Positions 15,432 to 22,946 of a stretch of 64,000 bases of DNA are shown in pieces (positions within the stretch are counted from its first letter, which is position 1; the number at the start of each line of letters is the position of its first letter). The translations under genes and the position numbers were made by a program. The DNA lies in assembly GCA_900472175.1 (NCBI GenBank), contig UCHD01000014.1:1-64000 (forward strand), read 5' to 3'. The notes below the pieces were generated by a model, which searched no databases, was not told where the DNA came from, and saw nothing but the letters and a program-made list of their open reading frames with translations. This DNA comes from Hyphomicrobiales bacterium. GTDB lineage: Bacteria; Pseudomonadota; Alphaproteobacteria; Rhizobiales; Rhizobiaceae.

Positions 15432-16190
15432 CTAGACGAAATAGGTGACGATGCGATTGCCGTGGAGTTCGTGCACGTCAAAAGTGGTGTCGTAAACCGC
15501 TTGCAGAACATCCGGCCGAACGATGTCATCTGGGGTTCCCTGGAAGGCGACCGTGCCGTTGCTCATGGCGACGATATGGTCCGAATAGCAGGAGGCGAAG
15601 TTGATGTCGTGAAGGACGATGACGATGGTCTTGCCAAGTTCGGTTGCTGCCTTTTGCAGCAACTTCATCATCGTGACGGCGTGTTTCATGTCGAGATTGT
15701 TCAGTGGTTCGTCGAATAGAACATAGTCGGTATCCTGACAGAGTACCATCGCAACGAAAGCACGCTGGCGTTGCCCGCCGGACAGCTCATCCAGGAAACG
15801 GTCGGCCAGCGTCTGCAGATCGAGATAGGCGAGTGCTTCTTCGATTTTCCGGCCGTCAGCGGCGGTCAAGCGGCCCTTTGAATGGGGATAACGGCCGAAC
15901 TCGACCAGATCCCGCACAGTCAACCGCGCCGTCATTGTATTGTCCTGCCGCAATATCGACAGGCGCCGGGCAAGGGCATCACTGGGTGCCGAGACAATGT
16001 CCAGGCCATCAATCGCTATCATACCGCTGTCGAGCGGAAGCAGCCGGCTGATCAAGGACAGAAGCGTGGATTTTCCCGCGCCGTTCGGGCCGATGATTGT
16101 GGTTATGCCGCCGGCTGGCAGCGTAAGGCTGACACCATTGACAACGATGGTCTCGCCATAGCGCTTGGTTGCATTCTCGATCGAGATCAT
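15432..16190 (-). CDS. Ferric-siderophore ABC transporter ATP-binding protein
   Basis: This 252-residue ATPase has Walker A (GPNGAGKST, about 33-41), signature LSGGQRQRA, Walker B (YVLFDEP) and an H-loop (VLHDI), with the size and sequence of FecE/VctC-type iron-chelate importers. It overlaps the permease gene before it by 4 bases. Last gene of the siderophore operon. Confidence 0.93.
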   Translation of the reverse strand: MISIENATKRYGETIVVNGVSLTLPAGGITTIIGPNGAGKSTLLSLISRLLPLDSGMIAIDGLDIVSAPSDALARRLSILRQDNTMTARLTVRDLVEFGRYPHSKGRLTAADGRKIEEALAYLDLQTLADRFLDELSGGQRQRAFVAMVLCQDTDYVLFDEPLNNLDMKHAVTMMKLLQKAATELGKTIVIVLHDINFASCYSDHIVAMSNGTVAFQGTPDDIVRPDVLQAVYDTTFDVHELHGNRIVTYFV

Positions 16191-17158
16191 CGTGCACCTT
16201 TCCGGATCAGCAAAACAATGAAAAACAGCCCGCCGACAAACTCGATGACGATGCCAAGCGCGGTGTCGAAGGCAAACAGGCGTTCAAGGATCATCTGACC
16301 GCCAACGAGACTGATCATCGCAAACAGAACCGCAGCCGGCAGCACGAACCGATGCTTGGCGTTGGCAATGAGCTGATAGGCAAGGCTCGCCACCAGCAGG
16401 CCGAAAAATGTCACTGGACCAACGAGGGCCGTGGATACCGAAACAAGGATCGCGATGACGACGAGGATCATCGTCGTCACACGACGGTGGTCGACTCCCA
16501 GGTTGATTGCCGTCTCCCGGCCCAATGACATGACGTCGAGAGACGGAGATATGCGCCATGCGAAAAAGCTTGCACCCCCGACCATCAGAAGGGAAATTCC
16601 GAGCAGGTTCGGATCGACGCTGTTGAAGCTTGCAAAAAGCCTGTCCTGCAAAACGATAAAGTCGTTGGGATCAATGACGCGCTGCAAAAAACCGGAAAAA
16701 CTGCGGAACAGGATGCCGAAAATGAGCCCGACAAGGATAAGCGTGTGGAGGCTTCTCACGGCGCCAGAAAACAGCCAACGATAGAGCAAGCAGGAAAAAA
16801 AGATCATGATGGCGCATTCCACGGCGAACATCAGCCGTGGATCAATCGCCGTGACGGCCTGTGCGCCAAGGGTGAAAACGAGGCATGTCTGAATCAGGGC
16901 ATAAAGTGCGTCAAACCCCATGATCGAGGGGCTTAGAATGCGATTGTTGCTGACGGTCTGGAACAGCACGGTCGAAACCGCGATGGAATAGGCGACCAAC
17001 AGCATGGCTAGAAGCTTTGCGCCGCGAAACGGCAGGATGAAGGACCAATTGCCCTTTACCCCGATCGTCATGAAAAAGATGCATACGGCTACACAAAGTG
17101 TAGCCGTGATGACAAGAAACCGGATCGAGGCTCTATTTCTGGACAAGCTAGGTGGCAC
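16187..17158 (-). CDS. Ferric-siderophore ABC permease (FecCD family), second subunit
   Basis: This 323-residue membrane protein has about nine to ten hydrophobic segments and the FecCD-family layout, with the PVTFFGLLVASLAYQ segment near the ATPase contact. The start is a GTG at 17158 with GAGGAA upstream, overlapping the end of the first permease by 11 bases. It forms the channel with the permease encoded just before it. Confidence 0.92.
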   Translation of the reverse strand: MPPSLSRNRASIRFLVITATLCVAVCIFFMTIGVKGNWSFILPFRGAKLLAMLLVAYSIAVSTVLFQTVSNNRILSPSIMGFDALYALIQTCLVFTLGAQAVTAIDPRLMFAVECAIMIFFSCLLYRWLFSGAVRSLHTLILVGLIFGILFRSFSGFLQRVIDPNDFIVLQDRLFASFNSVDPNLLGISLLMVGGASFFAWRISPSLDVMSLGRETAINLGVDHRRVTTMILVVIAILVSVSTALVGPVTFFGLLVASLAYQLIANAKHRFVLPAAVLFAMISLVGGQMILERLFAFDTALGIVIEFVGGLFFIVLLIRKGAR

Positions 17159-18137
17159 GGGACTGTTTCCTCAGTACGAGATAGAGGAAAAACACGCTTC
17201 CAAGTACACCGAGAACGGTTCCAACCGGAATTTCGAACGGGGCTATGACGATACGCCCGGCAATATCGCAGACCAGAACAAGTCCGGCACCAGTGAGCGC
17301 AATCCAAGGCAATGACCGGCGCAACCGGTCGCCCATCGCCATGCTGACGATATTGGGAACGATCAAACCCAAAAACGGTACCATCCCGACAGTCACCACC
17401 ACGCAGGCCGTGACCATGGAAACGATCACAAGGCCGAACCTGACCACCTGAATGTAAGTCAGTCCCAGATTGGTTGTGAACTGTTCGCCCATGCCGATCA
17501 CCGTAAACCGGTCGGCGGCGGCATAGGCGGCGATTGTCAAGGCAAGCGACAACCACAGCAACTCGTAACGGCCCTTGATAACCGATGAGAAGTCGCCGGT
17601 GGTCCAGGCACTCAGTGATTGCATCATATCGTAACGATAGGCAAAAAATGTGGTAATCGCGCTGATCACGCCACCCAGCATGATGCCCACCAGGGGCACC
17701 ATCAGGGCAGAGCGGAGCGGGAATTGCCGCAGAATCATCAGGAATATACCGGTGCCGGCCAGCGCAAACAGTGTCGATACGAGCATCTTGCCATAGACGG
17801 GCAGTCCCGGCGCCAGAAGCAGCACGGCGAGGATGCCAAGGCTGGCGGATTCAACCGTTCCTGCCGTTGATGGCTCGACGAAGCGATTGCGGGCCAGCAT
17901 CTGCATGATCGTACCGGAAACAGCCATGCCGACACCTGCCAGAACCAGGGCCAGGGTGCGCGGCACACGGCTTTCGAACAGCAATAGCTGTGCCGTCGCA
18001 TCGCCGTTGGTGAAAAGCGAGACAAGCGACAGCTCGCTGACACCAACCATGACGCTGGCACCCATCAGAACGAAAAGAAGAAAGAGAGCGCCAAAAAGTT
18101 TCAAGAGTCTGCAACGAAAAAAATGAAAGGATTGCAT
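17148..18137 (-). CDS. Ferric-siderophore ABC permease (FecCD family), first subunit
   Basis: This 329-residue membrane protein matches the BtuC/FecC permease family, including PFLGLIVPNIVSM near the ATPase-coupling helix. I start at the ATG at 18137, which has GAAGGCGG directly upstream; a TTG at 18185 would overlap the binding-protein stop and adds no family sequence. It pairs with the second permease downstream. Confidence 0.92.
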   Translation of the reverse strand: MQSFHFFRCRLLKLFGALFLLFVLMGASVMVGVSELSLVSLFTNGDATAQLLLFESRVPRTLALVLAGVGMAVSGTIMQMLARNRFVEPSTAGTVESASLGILAVLLLAPGLPVYGKMLVSTLFALAGTGIFLMILRQFPLRSALMVPLVGIMLGGVISAITTFFAYRYDMMQSLSAWTTGDFSSVIKGRYELLWLSLALTIAAYAAADRFTVIGMGEQFTTNLGLTYIQVVRFGLVIVSMVTACVVVTVGMVPFLGLIVPNIVSMAMGDRLRRSLPWIALTGAGLVLVCDIAGRIVIAPFEIPVGTVLGVLGSVFFLYLVLRKQSRAT

Positions 18138-18181
18138 CCGCCTTCGTAAAGGGAGGATGCGGCAAGTCAAAACGTTGCTTC

Positions 18182-19111
18182 TCAATCTTGATTCAACGCT
18201 ATGGTCAGCTGGTTCACCGTTTTCTGCATGGCAGTGATGCCGCCGCCAACCAAATACCAGGACATGCCGTCAAGATAGACCACGCGTCCATTCTTCCAGG
18301 CGTTGGTCTGGTGAACGATCTCGTTATCGAGATATTGTTTTGCTGATGTCCCGTCACGTCCGATAGAGGAATCCCGGTCGATGACATAGAGCCATTCCGG
18401 ATTGGTTTCCAAGAGGAACTCGAAGGAGATCGCCTGTCCATGATTGCCGCTCTTCAGGCCCTGGGCTGCTGGCGCCACGCCATAATCGCTGTGGAGCATG
18501 CCGAAACGCGAACCAGGACCATAGGCGCTCATCTTGCCGCCGGTCGTCAGGATCAGCAGGCCTTTGCCAGCAGTGGCAGACTTTTCCTTCAGGGCGGCCG
18601 TCGAACTGTCGAGCTTTTCAAGCAGCATTGTGGCTTCCGTCTTCTTGTTGAAGATAGCGGCCAGTGTGCGGACATTGGTTTGGGCGCTTTTCATATAGTT
18701 TTGAGGATCGACGGTAAGATCGATCGTCGGCGCGATTTTGGCGAGCTCTGCGTATTTTGCAGCCGAGCGGCCGGCCACGATGATCAGGTCCGGTGCCGCA
18801 GCGTTCACGGCTTCATAGTCCGGCTCGAACAGGGTGCCGATCGACAGGTATTTGTCGTCCTTGTAGGCGCCCAAATAGTCGGGCTTGGGACCTGAAGGAA
18901 CCCCGGCGACCTCAATGCCGAGCGCATTCAGCGTATCGAGCGCTGCGAGATCGAACGTGAGCACCTTTTTCGGAACGGAGGAAAGGGTGGTTTCGCCTTT
19001 TGCATGGCGGATCGTCACATTAGCCGCTTGCGCCATGTGTCCGAACCCAGCAAGGGCGAGAAGACCGGCGAGGGCAAGGGCAAGAAACTGTCTCTTACGT
19101 GTAGAGATCAT
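18182..19111 (-). CDS. Periplasmic ferric-siderophore-binding protein
   Basis: This 309-residue protein has a signal peptide (to about residue 29, AQA) and a class III binding-protein fold with a PxxVLTFDLAALDTLNALG opening typical of the FatB/VctP/CeuE group, which bind catecholate or related siderophores. It has no lipobox, so it should be soluble in the periplasm. It follows the TonB receptor by 52 bp, with RBS GGAGAAATC before the ATG, and feeds the two permeases downstream. Confidence 0.92.
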   Translation of the reverse strand: MISTRKRQFLALALAGLLALAGFGHMAQAANVTIRHAKGETTLSSVPKKVLTFDLAALDTLNALGIEVAGVPSGPKPDYLGAYKDDKYLSIGTLFEPDYEAVNAAAPDLIIVAGRSAAKYAELAKIAPTIDLTVDPQNYMKSAQTNVRTLAAIFNKKTEATMLLEKLDSSTAALKEKSATAGKGLLILTTGGKMSAYGPGSRFGMLHSDYGVAPAAQGLKSGNHGQAISFEFLLETNPEWLYVIDRDSSIGRDGTSAKQYLDNEIVHQTNAWKNGRVVYLDGMSWYLVGGGITAMQKTVNQLTIALNQD

Positions 19112-19163: not shown

Positions 19164-21326
19164 TCAGAAATTAGCCGTCATGCTCAGCCAGAAGCGGCGG
19201 CCTTCCATTGTGGTATTGAAATCGGTTTGTTCGACCTGCTTGTCGAGAATGTTGTAGATTGCCGCGTTCATCGTGAGACCATCGTTGAAGGCGTATTTCG
19301 CACCGATATCGAGGGTCGCGTAGGCGGCGTACTCGCGGCCCGGCCGACCGTCGATGGTGACAGGTTTTCCATTCGTGCCGATGCGATCCCCAGCCGCTGT
19401 CTCCTTGCCGTGATAATTGGCTGAAGCCCATGCATCAAGGCCATCGACAGGCGTCACCCAGTCGACACGGAGGTTGGCCATATGCTCCGGTGTGCGGGCA
19501 AGCGGAAAGCCCTTGTAGGCTCCGGTTTGCTGTTCGGACTTCGTGTAGGTGTAGCTTCCGCGAACCGCAATGTCCCCGGTGGCGTGCCAGGTCGCGGCCA
19601 GCTCGACCCCCTGGATGACGGCAGCATCAATGTTATAGTTGTACCAGAGGAGATAATTCGGGTCTTCACTCCAGCGCGCTGGCTTGCCAGCGGAGTCGAA
19701 TACGGGAGCGTTGGAAATCTTGTCCTTGAAATTCGTATAGAAATAGGTTGCGCCAAGTGTCACATCTCCCTTATCCCAGAGAGCACCCAGTTCGTAGCTG
19801 GTACTGGATTCTGCCTTGAGACTGGGTTCGCCGATGATGACACTGCAATTTCCAGTCGGACCATAGGTGCACCTGGCTCCGCCGGAGGTATAGGCATAAC
19901 CCGGCGCGATCGTGCGAATATCCGGTGCACGGAAACCGGTGGACACGCCGCCCTTGACCGTCAGCTCGTCCGTCGCATTCCAGACACCGTAGATCCGCGG
20001 GCTGAGATGGTAACCGTATTCCTGATGATGGTCCAACCGCAGGCCCGTTGTCAGGGCAAAGGTGTCGGTCATCCGCCACTCGTCTTCACCAAACAGCGCC
20101 CACTGGGTCGCTGAGAACATCTCATCCTTTCCTGTTCGGCGTCCTGGATTCTGGTCCTTGAGCTGCGCCTCGAAATATTGTCCACCCGTCACCAGCGTAT
20201 GATCGCCCATTAGCTCAAATGGCGTGGTGAACTTGCCGTCGATCACGGTGTTGCGGATCTCAGGTGACCGTACGTTGGCAACGAACCGGCCATTAACGGG
20301 ATCATAGGTGTAGTTCGTGCGCTCTGCCCATTCCTGCGAGATCGAGAAATCCGAGGTGGTCGGCCCCCAGCGGCCGGTATGGGCTAACGACCAATGGTCG
20401 CGTTTGTTGGTGTTGAATGTGCCGTTCGCCAGCGCCGAGAGCGTGTTCGCCGGAGAAGCCTCCCTCCGTAGATTGGCTATACCGCCCTCCAGATAGATGT
20501 CATGGTCTTCGTTGGGGGTGTAGGTCAGCCGTCCTGAAATATCATATTCCTTTGAGGCCGTGACGCCGCTCAAGAACTGGTCTTCGCCGCGCTTCAGGCC
20601 GCGCCCCCATATCTGCATGCCGACCACATCTTTGAGGATAGGGCCGCTGGCATACCAGCTGGCCTGCCCGCTATTGCCGAAACGGGAGTGCTGCTGGATC
20701 GTCGCATCGGTTGTGACCGATCCGGACCACGTATCGGCAACCTTGCGGGTAATGATGTTGATCACGCCACCCATGGCATCGGAACCATACAGCGATGACA
20801 TCGGCCCACGCACGATTTCGATACGTTCGATAGCCGAAACCGGCGGTACGAAGCTCTGTTCGAACCCGGAATTGCCGTTGGTACGCGCATCGCGCGTGCT
20901 TTGGCGCCGGCCGTCGACGAGAAGCAAGGTATAGGCGCCCGGCAGCCCCCGGATGAAGATGTCCTTTTCGTTGGCAACGCCGGTCACGGCGACACCCTGC
21001 ACTTCCCGCAGGGCGTCGGTCAGATCACGGAATGCACCTTTTTCCAGCTCTTCCCGTGTCACAACGGTGATGCTGGCCGGTGCTTCCTTGACGTTCTGCT
21101 CGAAGCCGCTTGCGGTCACGACAAGTTGTTCAAGGACGGTAGCCTTGCTCGAGGCGTTCTGGGCAAAGGCTGCGGACGGAATGCTGAGGGCTGTTCCCAT
21201 CATGCAGAGTTGAAACAGGCGGCCGGATCTAACTGAAAGAATTGATGAATACTTATCGCTTACTTGAGTTTCACCATTCCCTGCTATGCCGCCTCGAACG
21301 TCAACCTGCCCCATTTTCCCCACCAT
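19164..21326 (-). CDS. TonB-dependent siderophore receptor
   Basis: This protein of about 720 residues has a signal region, a TonB-box-like LVVTASGFEQ segment, a plug domain (RGLPGAYTLLLVDGR, then ERIEIVRGP) and a long C-terminal beta-barrel ending in Phe (SMTANF). It imports a ferric siderophore across the outer membrane for the ABC genes downstream. The ATG at 21326 has only a weak RBS; an ATG four codons later (21314) follows GGTGGGG and may be the true start. A TonB/ExbBD set is not in the window. Expression is probably iron-controlled through the ICE-box-like site upstream. Confidence 0.93.
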   Translation of the reverse strand: MVGKMGQVDVRGGIAGNGETQVSDKYSSILSVRSGRLFQLCMMGTALSIPSAAFAQNASSKATVLEQLVVTASGFEQNVKEAPASITVVTREELEKGAFRDLTDALREVQGVAVTGVANEKDIFIRGLPGAYTLLLVDGRRQSTRDARTNGNSGFEQSFVPPVSAIERIEIVRGPMSSLYGSDAMGGVINIITRKVADTWSGSVTTDATIQQHSRFGNSGQASWYASGPILKDVVGMQIWGRGLKRGEDQFLSGVTASKEYDISGRLTYTPNEDHDIYLEGGIANLRREASPANTLSALANGTFNTNKRDHWSLAHTGRWGPTTSDFSISQEWAERTNYTYDPVNGRFVANVRSPEIRNTVIDGKFTTPFELMGDHTLVTGGQYFEAQLKDQNPGRRTGKDEMFSATQWALFGEDEWRMTDTFALTTGLRLDHHQEYGYHLSPRIYGVWNATDELTVKGGVSTGFRAPDIRTIAPGYAYTSGGARCTYGPTGNCSVIIGEPSLKAESSTSYELGALWDKGDVTLGATYFYTNFKDKISNAPVFDSAGKPARWSEDPNYLLWYNYNIDAAVIQGVELAATWHATGDIAVRGSYTYTKSEQQTGAYKGFPLARTPEHMANLRVDWVTPVDGLDAWASANYHGKETAAGDRIGTNGKPVTIDGRPGREYAAYATLDIGAKYAFNDGLTMNAAIYNILDKQVEQTDFNTTMEGRRFWLSMTANF

Positions 21327-21399
21327 TGAATCACACCAAAATAACTTGAGAAAGTTAGTCCACTTAGTTATTGGCGCTATGGAGGGTCAATCGCGTTGT

Positions 21400-21416
21400 T
21401 TTAGAATGATTCCAAA
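21400..21416. promoter_or_regulatory. ICE-box-like Irr operator
   Basis: TTTAGAA-N3-TTCCAAA matches the Irr iron-control element TTTAGAA-N3-TTCTAAA with one mismatch. It lies 74 bp upstream of the receptor start and 48 bp from the divergent LysR-TrpD2 gene, so it could control either. It fits iron regulation of the siderophore operon. Confidence 0.6.
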
Positions 21417-21464
21417 TTCGAGAAAACGCAAACTAATCATCTCAGTCACATAAACGGAAAAGAT

Positions 21465-22946
21465 GTGGAGCGGAAAAGTGTAATTTCACGCCGTGAACCG
21501 GCGTCAACAACGGCTGGCGACAGGCTTGAGCGCCATGGACAATTGCGGCTTCTGACGGCCTTCGATGCGCTTCTGCGCGAAGGCACAGTTAGCCGGGCAG
21601 CGGCCAGCATGGGTCTGCAGCCTCCGGCGATGAGTCGTATTCTTTCGCAATTGCGCAGCCTTTATGGCGACCCGCTGTTTATCCGCACCGGCCACGGCCT
21701 CCTGCCGACGCCTTTCGCCGAGACCATGCGCTTGCGCGTCCGTGCGCTTACTGCGGAGGCCGATGATCTGATGCAGCCAGGTATGCACCCTGCCGGCATG
21801 GTGCAACCGCAGCAGTCATTGGGTTGGGATAAACCGAGCCTGCTGAAGATTCCGCCGCTTGCTCTGCGCCCAAGTGTGATGATCGAGGGACAACCGACAC
21901 CGGCAGACTTTGCCGCCAAACTTGCGCTCATTGGCCACAATGCTCCTCCGGAGCGCCGCCTCGCCAAATACATCGCGACGATCGGCAGGGGGCCAGGCCA
22001 AAGCCGGCCACTCAACCAGAACGAGGCCGCAGATGCGCTGGCCATCATCCTTGATGGCGCGTGCGACCCTGTTCAGGTGGGCGCGTTGCTGGCGATGGTT
22101 CAGTATCGCGGCATGACTGCAGCGGAGGTCGCGGGCTTTGTCGAAGCCGCGAGGCGGCATATAGGGGCTGCGCCGAACATGGAAAATCTCGCGGATATAG
22201 ACTGGCCCTGCTACATTTCGCCCAAGCTGAAACGGGCGCCTTGGTTTATTCATTCAGCCCGTCTCGTCGTCATGGCCGGCCACAGCGTGGTCCTGCATGG
22301 TGATCATGGTCAGGGCGAGGATTCCGGCAAGCTGGAAATGGCTTGCGAGCGGGCTGCGATTCCCGTGTGCCAAACCTTGCATGAGGCAAGGACTGCAATG
22401 AAAAGGGAAGGCATCGCCTACCTGCCACTGGCTGCCATGTCGGCCCAGATCAAGAGGCTGGTCGGTCTTTATCCCCTGCTTGAAATGCGGCTGCCACTGA
22501 GCACCGTCGTCCATCTGCTCAATCCGCTCGGTGCACGCCTAAGCCTCCTTGGTGTCACCAAGCCATCGCATCGGGAACTTCACAGGGAGGCTGCGAAGCT
22601 GGCGGGGATGGACAATATTTGCATCATCGGCAGCAATCGGGATTTCGCCGAATTCACACCCTTCCGCTCAACGACGCTTTTCCGGCTGATAGATGGCGAG
22701 CCCGCCGATACCATCATTCCGATGCGCCCTACGCCCCCCACCCAAACGCCGACCGGATTTTCCAGCCGGGAATATTGGGAGGCCGTCTGGACCGGGGCCG
22801 CCCGCGACGAGGTGGCGGAAACAACCATTATCACGACAGCTGCCGCAGCGCTGATGAGCCTGCGAAAAGGCACAGCCACTTCTTTCGACGCGATTTGTAA
22901 GGAAGCGGCCGCACTTTGGGAGACGAGATCGAAACGGCCGTCTTGA
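21465..22946 (+). CDS. LysR-type HTH fused to a TrpD2/YbiB-like glycosyltransferase-family domain
   Basis: This 493-residue protein has a LysR-type winged HTH at about residues 24-85 (REGTVSRAAASMGLQPPAMSRI), then about 360 residues resembling the anthranilate-phosphoribosyltransferase-like TrpD2/YbiB family (QNEAADALAIILDGACDPVQVGALLAMVQYRG... is the helical entry domain), not the usual LysR effector domain. TrpD2 proteins bind nucleic acid and lack Trp-biosynthesis activity, so the fusion is probably a regulator. The start is a GTG at 21465. It is divergent from the siderophore receptor, and may regulate it. Confidence 0.8.
   Translation: MERKSVISRREPASTTAGDRLERHGQLRLLTAFDALLREGTVSRAAASMGLQPPAMSRILSQLRSLYGDPLFIRTGHGLLPTPFAETMRLRVRALTAEADDLMQPGMHPAGMVQPQQSLGWDKPSLLKIPPLALRPSVMIEGQPTPADFAAKLALIGHNAPPERRLAKYIATIGRGPGQSRPLNQNEAADALAIILDGACDPVQVGALLAMVQYRGMTAAEVAGFVEAARRHIGAAPNMENLADIDWPCYISPKLKRAPWFIHSARLVVMAGHSVVLHGDHGQGEDSGKLEMACERAAIPVCQTLHEARTAMKREGIAYLPLAAMSAQIKRLVGLYPLLEMRLPLSTVVHLLNPLGARLSLLGVTKPSHRELHREAAKLAGMDNICIIGSNRDFAEFTPFRSTTLFRLIDGEPADTIIPMRPTPPTQTPTGFSSREYWEAVWTGAARDEVAETTIITTAAAALMSLRKGTATSFDAICKEAAALWETRSKRPS

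Follow-up and report, generated by a model that had tools for sequence, protein, structure and literature searches.

A LysR-type helix-turn-helix joined to a TrpD2-type phosphoribosyltransferase fold beside siderophore uptake genes: a candidate one-component regulator in Rhizobiaceae and some other alphaproteobacteria

The locus and the fusion protein

The window analysed here, a stretch of 64,000 nucleotides from contig UCHD01000014.1 of a Hyphomicrobiales bacterium of the Rhizobiaceae (assembly GCA_900472175.1), carries on its forward strand (21465..22946) a gene with a GTG start whose 493-residue product joins a LysR-type helix-turn-helix (HTH) to a TrpD2-type domain. Divergent from it, on the reverse strand, lie a TonB-dependent receptor of catecholate type, CirA/IreA-like (19164..21326), the best NCBIfam matches of which are below their cut-offs, a siderophore ATP-binding cassette (ABC) substrate-binding protein (SBP; 18182..19111) whose best match, the catechol-type SstD, is also below cut-off, and, by profile matches, two permeases of the iron-siderophore/B12 type (17148..18185 and 16187..17158) and a FecE-like siderophore ABC ATPase (15432..16190). 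Judged from sequence, the architecture of the fusion, its siderophore neighbourhood and the promoter region that it shares with its divergent neighbour are conserved, and we think it rather probable that the protein acts as a one-component regulator on the transcription of the siderophore uptake genes next to it, the cleft of its TrpD2 half serving as effector domain.

Residues 27-86 (21543..21722) are assigned to a LysR-type winged HTH by Pfam HTH_1 (E 1.4e-15), by a structure model and by Foldseek, which matched the N-terminal model to LysR DNA-binding domains; this part was modelled separately because VIA-align/Foldseek of the whole model returned TrpD/YbiB matches. It is followed by the linker (dimerization) helix of LysR-type transcriptional regulators (LTTRs) at residues 83-103 (21711..21773; DSSP of the N-terminal model) and by a low-confidence linker at about residues 105-145 (21777..21899), in which the predicted local distance difference test (pLDDT) falls below 50 at residues 105-119, 121-123 and 132-140. 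The TrpD2-type phosphoribosyltransferase-fold domain itself (residues 159-491; 21939..22937) passes the NF006564 (PRK09071) cut-off of 257 with 330.6 bits, and structure comparison of the model gives residues 157-493 the TrpD/YbiB fold, phosphoribosyltransferase III type. The NCBIfam YbiB model scores 75 bits against the fusion protein, below its cut-off of 185. No family of the LysR effector (PBP2-type substrate-binding) domain was found in the protein at E<=0.001, profile searches of the domain libraries detected no further enzyme family in it and a PHROGs search matched two families of unknown function. By these profiles and models, the protein is a LysR-type winged HTH, a flexible linker and a phosphoribosyltransferase fold. 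The initial annotation, which had described a LysR HTH fused to a TrpD2/YbiB-like domain in place of a LysR effector domain, was right on this point: the fusion is real and conserved, and the C-terminal domain, when compared with LysR effector domains, proved to be a phosphoribosyltransferase fold.

The cleft of the TrpD2-type domain

Aligned to the TrpD of its own genome, the fusion has DWPxYxSP in place of the GTGGD loop, xHG in place of KHGN and RDxA[EQ] in place of the metal-binding DE loop, so that the residues forming its cleft-loop signature (S252-P253, H278-G279 and R392-D393) would, from this alignment, line the cleft. S252 is present in 87/87 fusion rows (which contain one record twice, L040 and L083, and were told from stand-alone proteins by the HTH hit itself), as against G in 29/29 stand-alone relatives; P253 is present in 83/87 as against K in 29/29, and R392 in 87/87 as against G in 26/29 (the other three being gaps). 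H278, the histidine of the TrpD KHGN motif, is kept in 86 of the 87. Such sharp differences in the cleft loops suggest a remodelling of the cleft, now maintained by selection for some new task.

What that task might be is narrowed by the same alignment. Because the motifs for phosphoribosyl pyrophosphate (PRPP) and metal, GTGGD and the DE pair, are replaced in the fusions, the phosphoribosyl ligand envisaged in the initial annotation was rejected as unsupported. Sensing of an anthranilate-like catechol by the old anthranilate site was also weakened, since the arginine of the TrpD anthranilate-binding helix aligns with non-basic residues; the fusions may have a new pocket instead. DNA binding by two domains, the other half of the earlier proposal, fares no better. 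YbiB needs two arginines (R92 and R123) for DNA binding, according to passages of PMC10123104, and at the positions that correspond to them in our own mapping from the alignment the fusions have a basic residue in 62/87 at the first and R in 12/87 at the second, whereas both are basic in 29/29 stand-alone relatives. An effector or dimerization role for the TrpD2 half would thus be favoured over a second DNA-binding role, although the fusion domains carry a slightly more positive charge (median net charge of +1, n=87, versus -4 in stand-alone relatives, n=29), which speaks against this preference.

Distribution of the fusion

HTH and TrpD2 are found in one open reading frame (ORF) in 24/247 genomes of the family, the present one included, and to these can be added G154, with a truncated HTH, and G078, in which two different frames encode the parts of the fusion; the three other genomes drawn from the same genus were without a full-length match. 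G078 (L031:195-2447) is the single split case seen, and its adjoining receptor gene is also broken, so that the pair appears, from sequence, to be decaying together; separate HTH and TrpD2 genes were not otherwise seen in close relatives. Across a class-wide sample of 337 genomes (E<=1e-40), the full fusion occurs in the own genome only and the other 33 matches cover the TrpD2 part alone; this sample was spread over families and barely covered the own one, which makes the fusion rare outside the family rather than absent. A scan of named genomes yielded 236 encoding stretches, of which 80 loci were kept, from Rhizobiaceae (broad sense), Azospirillum, Microvirga, Pannonibacter, Azorhizobium, Novispirillum and others, and in 80/80 an HTH, at least partial, lies within the TrpD2 ORF. 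At the level of the phylum, the NF006564 cut-off is exceeded in 57/398 genomes, comprising three fusions, 27 proteins without HTH in the ORF and 27 that were left unchecked. In a tree that also contains the 29 stand-alone proteins and the TrpD of the own genome, all 87 fusion rows form one clade (support 0.70). A further set, A2, is made up of 61 of the named loci and the window, L084 having been dropped for a stop in its translated stretch. In Neorhizobium sp. NCHU2750 (L041:7938-9989), the fusion ORF continues into IalB-domain sequence to a total of 683 aa, which may reflect either the loss of a stop codon or an error in sequencing.

The siderophore neighbourhood

The tie between the fusion and siderophore uptake is closer than the initial annotation, made from the window alone, could foresee. 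Flanks of up to 10 kb contain a receptor and/or SBP plus permease at 79 of the 80 named loci, the exception being a 3.4-kb contig, with a receptor in 77 and SBP plus permease in 52. The order of these genes is less constant, with a divergent receptor at 52 loci, a divergent SBP at 18, a receptor downstream at 9 and another arrangement at 1, and in annotated relatives from Shinella, Pararhizobium, Azospirillum and Agrobacterium a gene labelled 'glycosyl transferase family protein' is accompanied by a receptor and an ABC operon for siderophores, the order of which differs from case to case. Neither a receptor nor SBP plus permease was found in any of 16 regions (mean 17 kb) around stand-alone TrpD2 genes, a weak control drawn from other lineages in which 16 of 17 regions were taken (L148 was left out). 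When the own genome was searched for receptors at E<=1e-6, two hits were obtained, the receptor of the window and one other.

Co-occurrence in the 247 family genomes points the same way. The fusion is present in 21/27 genomes with a close SBP (at least 56% identity, a threshold set after seeing the list) versus 5/220 others (Fisher p 1.2e-20); G231, whose 57% SBP identity extends over 196 residues only, is excluded from the 27 and its inclusion would give 21/28, and the 26 fusion genomes of this count include G154 and G078. SBP and fusion share a contig in 17 of the 21 genomes having both. Among the five fusion genomes without a close SBP, G216, G190, G154 and G051 have a receptor beside the fusion, and in G102 an SBP of 51% identity lies at a distance of about 5 kb. 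The receptor of G216 (L172:5898-7969) aligns in two adjoining stretches (query 34-392 and 392-720), which would fit a broken frame. Near the siderophore operon of a Shinella locus lies a pair encoding a RES-domain protein and an Xre/MbcA/ParS antitoxin (L036:635-1491).

The shared promoter region

Between fusion and receptor lie two conserved elements. Box B, TTTAGAATGATTCCAAA (21400..21416), is a palindrome resembling the Irr box, or iron control element (ICE), and element A, TAACTTGAGAAAGTTAGTCCACTTAGTTAT (21342..21371), is an imperfect dyad that starts 58 bp before it and is in part like the iron-responsive operator (IRO) of RirA. GGTCAA at 21385..21390, which reads TTGACC on the reverse strand, is conserved in the column profile and possibly represents the -35 of the receptor promoter; a consensus promoter scan of the promoter region found nothing. 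Beside box B, CGCAA (21427..21431) is conserved.

Motif discovery was run on 57 distinct intergenic regions (77 were extracted, 58 remained after removal of near-duplicates and 57 after a length limit, L038 being dropped and scanned separately), and box B was found in 57/57 (at least 12 bits) and element A in 48/57 (at least 14 bits), while single-base shuffles gave 0/570 for each, both tests being in-sample. When box B was trained on the 41 receptor-neighbour regions and tested on the 16 SBP-neighbour regions held out, scores of 5.2-18.7 exceeded the 95th shuffle percentile (2.0) in 16/16, the 99th (6.6) in 14/16 and the shuffle maximum (11.8) in at least 9. With spacing left free, element A starts 56-59 bp before box B, with a single exception at 53 (L088), and this spacing is the same beside a divergent receptor or a divergent SBP. 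Box B is also present in 10/10 Azospirillum-type loci scanned, where it is found on the downstream side of the fusion (in A. lipoferum, the annotated receptor begins about 100 bp further on) and has similar flanks, CAACG in 7/10 and GCAA in 10/10. Element A is absent from the same 10/10 loci and from each of the 5 Microvirga regions included. Four of these five Microvirga regions (L087, L100, L103 and L117) have a common stretch of about AGCTANTAGGTT at the place of element A.

The likeliest reading of box B is that of an Irr box. ICE boxes are described in papers on iron regulation, in passages that do not give their letters. In the own genome, which encodes both an Irr equivalog and RirA, the box B pattern recurs at mbfA with 0 mismatches, at a cysteine desulfurase gene with 1 and at bfr, rirA and a siderophore SBP-like gene with 2 each; 11 sites are found at <=2 mismatches, of which 6, the window's included, are at iron-related genes, and a reversed control pattern gives 7 sites, which makes single 2-mismatch sites weak. 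The flanks of box B were not seen at the mbfA, bfr and cysteine desulfurase sites. The Irr-box-like site at rirA (G000:C12:75084-75100, L183; 2 mismatches) precedes the gene by about 140 bp. The box B consensus holds a T-N11-A dyad, the operator pattern of LTTRs, and was seriously weighed as a candidate operator of the fusion, yet it equals the Irr-box pattern seen at mbfA, bfr and rirA, and since Azospirillum carries an Irr equivalog (L217), box B in Azospirillum-type loci does not exclude Irr. As for element A, the IRO box is given as TGA-N9-TCA in passages of PMC6386902; the window's copy contains TGA-N9-TCC, and several SBP-type loci depart further from IRO.

Proposed function and alternatives

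A regulator of catecholate uptake that responds to substrate would fit the combination of a LysR HTH with a dimeric sensor fold, a likely target next to it and general control by iron. In such a model, the LTTR linker helix and the helical domain of TrpD2 would hold the fusion protein together as a dimer, its HTH would bind the shared promoter and the remodelled cleft would be occupied by a small molecule connected with the catecholate siderophore being imported; this occupancy would in turn switch the receptor/ABC genes, probably by activating them. The iron-dependent level would come from Irr and RirA acting at the Irr-box-like and IRO-like elements, and as the fusion would add a response to ligand, these genes may respond to both iron need and substrate. 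More tentatively, and with rather less confidence than an even chance would warrant, we propose that the anthranilate-phosphoribosyltransferase fold has become the effector domain of an LTTR, that the cleft marked by S252-P253 and R392-D393 senses a catechol or siderophore-derived ligand and gates receptor expression, and that these proteins form a new class of one-component regulators hidden under the label 'glycosyl transferase'.

Three other explanations were weighed. The TrpD2 half might bind DNA or a partner protein as in YbiB, lending the regulator nonspecific affinity or cooperativity with no sensing of a ligand, a view to which the loss of the PRPP motif from a TrpD2 fold, as in the passages on YbiB, and the slightly more basic charge both lend something, but which we regard as unlikely: the YbiB arginines are not conserved, the YbiB model scores far below its cut-off and a nonspecific DNA clamp leaves unexplained why residues are fixed in the very loops that align with the active-site loops of TrpD. 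Those invariant residues, together with the retained H278 and the siroheme and Dsr genes near some stand-alone relatives, would be accommodated by a bifunctional protein whose TrpD2 half has kept an enzymatic activity, its substrate being a siderophore, ribosyl or tetrapyrrole compound, with the HTH adding autoregulation. The replacement of GTGGD and of the metal-binding DE pair, and the lack of any other detected enzyme family in the protein, make this improbable.

The gene might, in the third place, merely be packed into the iron regulon, being controlled by Irr/RirA and regulating other genes. Box B and element A can indeed be explained by Irr and RirA, given the published IRO motif, and no operator specific to the fusion was isolated. 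Yet 79/80 loci keep receptor or siderophore ABC genes although receptor type, divergent gene and orientation all vary, and LTTR genes often regulate their divergent neighbour, so that simple packing strikes us as quite improbable. Regulation of the uptake genes through an effector cleft is preferred, and several observations count against it. Box B and element A are both candidate operators of the fusion, but box B fits Irr, and element A is partly IRO-like and also occurs once where there is no fusion. Among six fusion-less SBP regions scanned, apart from the promoter of L171 (the region starts inside the SBP), one has element A upstream of the SBP (L168) and two have a perfect TGA-N9-TCA there (L169 and L170). 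A close SBP occurs without the fusion in 6 of the 27 genomes, which means that the fusion is not essential to the operon, and G040 has a close receptor and a box-B-like site (L170:6248-6418) with no fusion gene. The SBP is on a contig other than the fusion's in 4/21 genomes (G096, G230, G170 and G078), in two of which, G096 and G230, a receptor adjoins the fusion. The single origin suggested by the tree has a support of only 0.70. Of the regulator beside an iron-uptake operon first proposed, the fusion and its siderophore link stand, and DNA binding by two domains and the phosphoribosyl ligand are not supported.

Relation to known systems

With LTTRs the fusion shares HTH_1, the linker helix and, at most loci, the divergent arrangement, but a phosphoribosyltransferase fold replaces the effector domain in its 493 residues. 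A functional parallel is offered by IrgB of Vibrio cholerae, an LTTR divergent from irgA that has an ordinary LTTR effector domain. IrgB is described as an activator of the enterobactin receptor IrgA. TrpD, the anthranilate phosphoribosyltransferase, differs by its GTGGD and DE motifs, and only the HG of its KHGN is kept. YbiB has the fold and the loss of the PRPP motif in common with the fusion domain, but is about 19% identical to it and relies on arginines that the fusion lacks; unlike the fusion, it is not described as having an HTH in the passages of PMC10123104. The literature covered also includes PMC5445326, PMC9835598, PMC3413700, PMC10374146, PMC10510648, PMC7600106 and PMC4324432. 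Among the open-licence PubMed Central papers listed by searches aimed at the fusion, no title or abstract beginning describes an HTH-TrpD2 fusion. If the proposed function is true, an enzyme fold would clearly have taken the place of a LysR effector domain, with a conserved neighbourhood that supplies both a natural candidate class of ligand and a target, and the little-understood TrpD2 fold would gain a testable job alongside the role of YbiB.

Close relatives are the stand-alone members of PRK09071/NF006564, which share the DWP, PW, HG and W-G positions with the fusion. The 29 in the tree have no HTH in the ORF, lack the S-P and R-D residues and form a group separate from the 87 HTH ORFs. 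Instead of the siderophore set (0/16 regions), siroheme and Dsr-domain proteins are their neighbours, hinting at a role different from that of the fusion: in 13 loci (L149-L165), siroheme synthase, NrfD, DsrC, DsrE and CobB/CobQ-type domains recur, in 2-4 proteins each among 52 neighbours. The shared name of the family, 'glycosyl transferase family protein', is misleading for the fusion as it hides the HTH, and the proposed function, if true, would correct it; 18 of the 20 plasmid rows listed carry this annotation, many of them being near-identical Agrobacterium plasmids.
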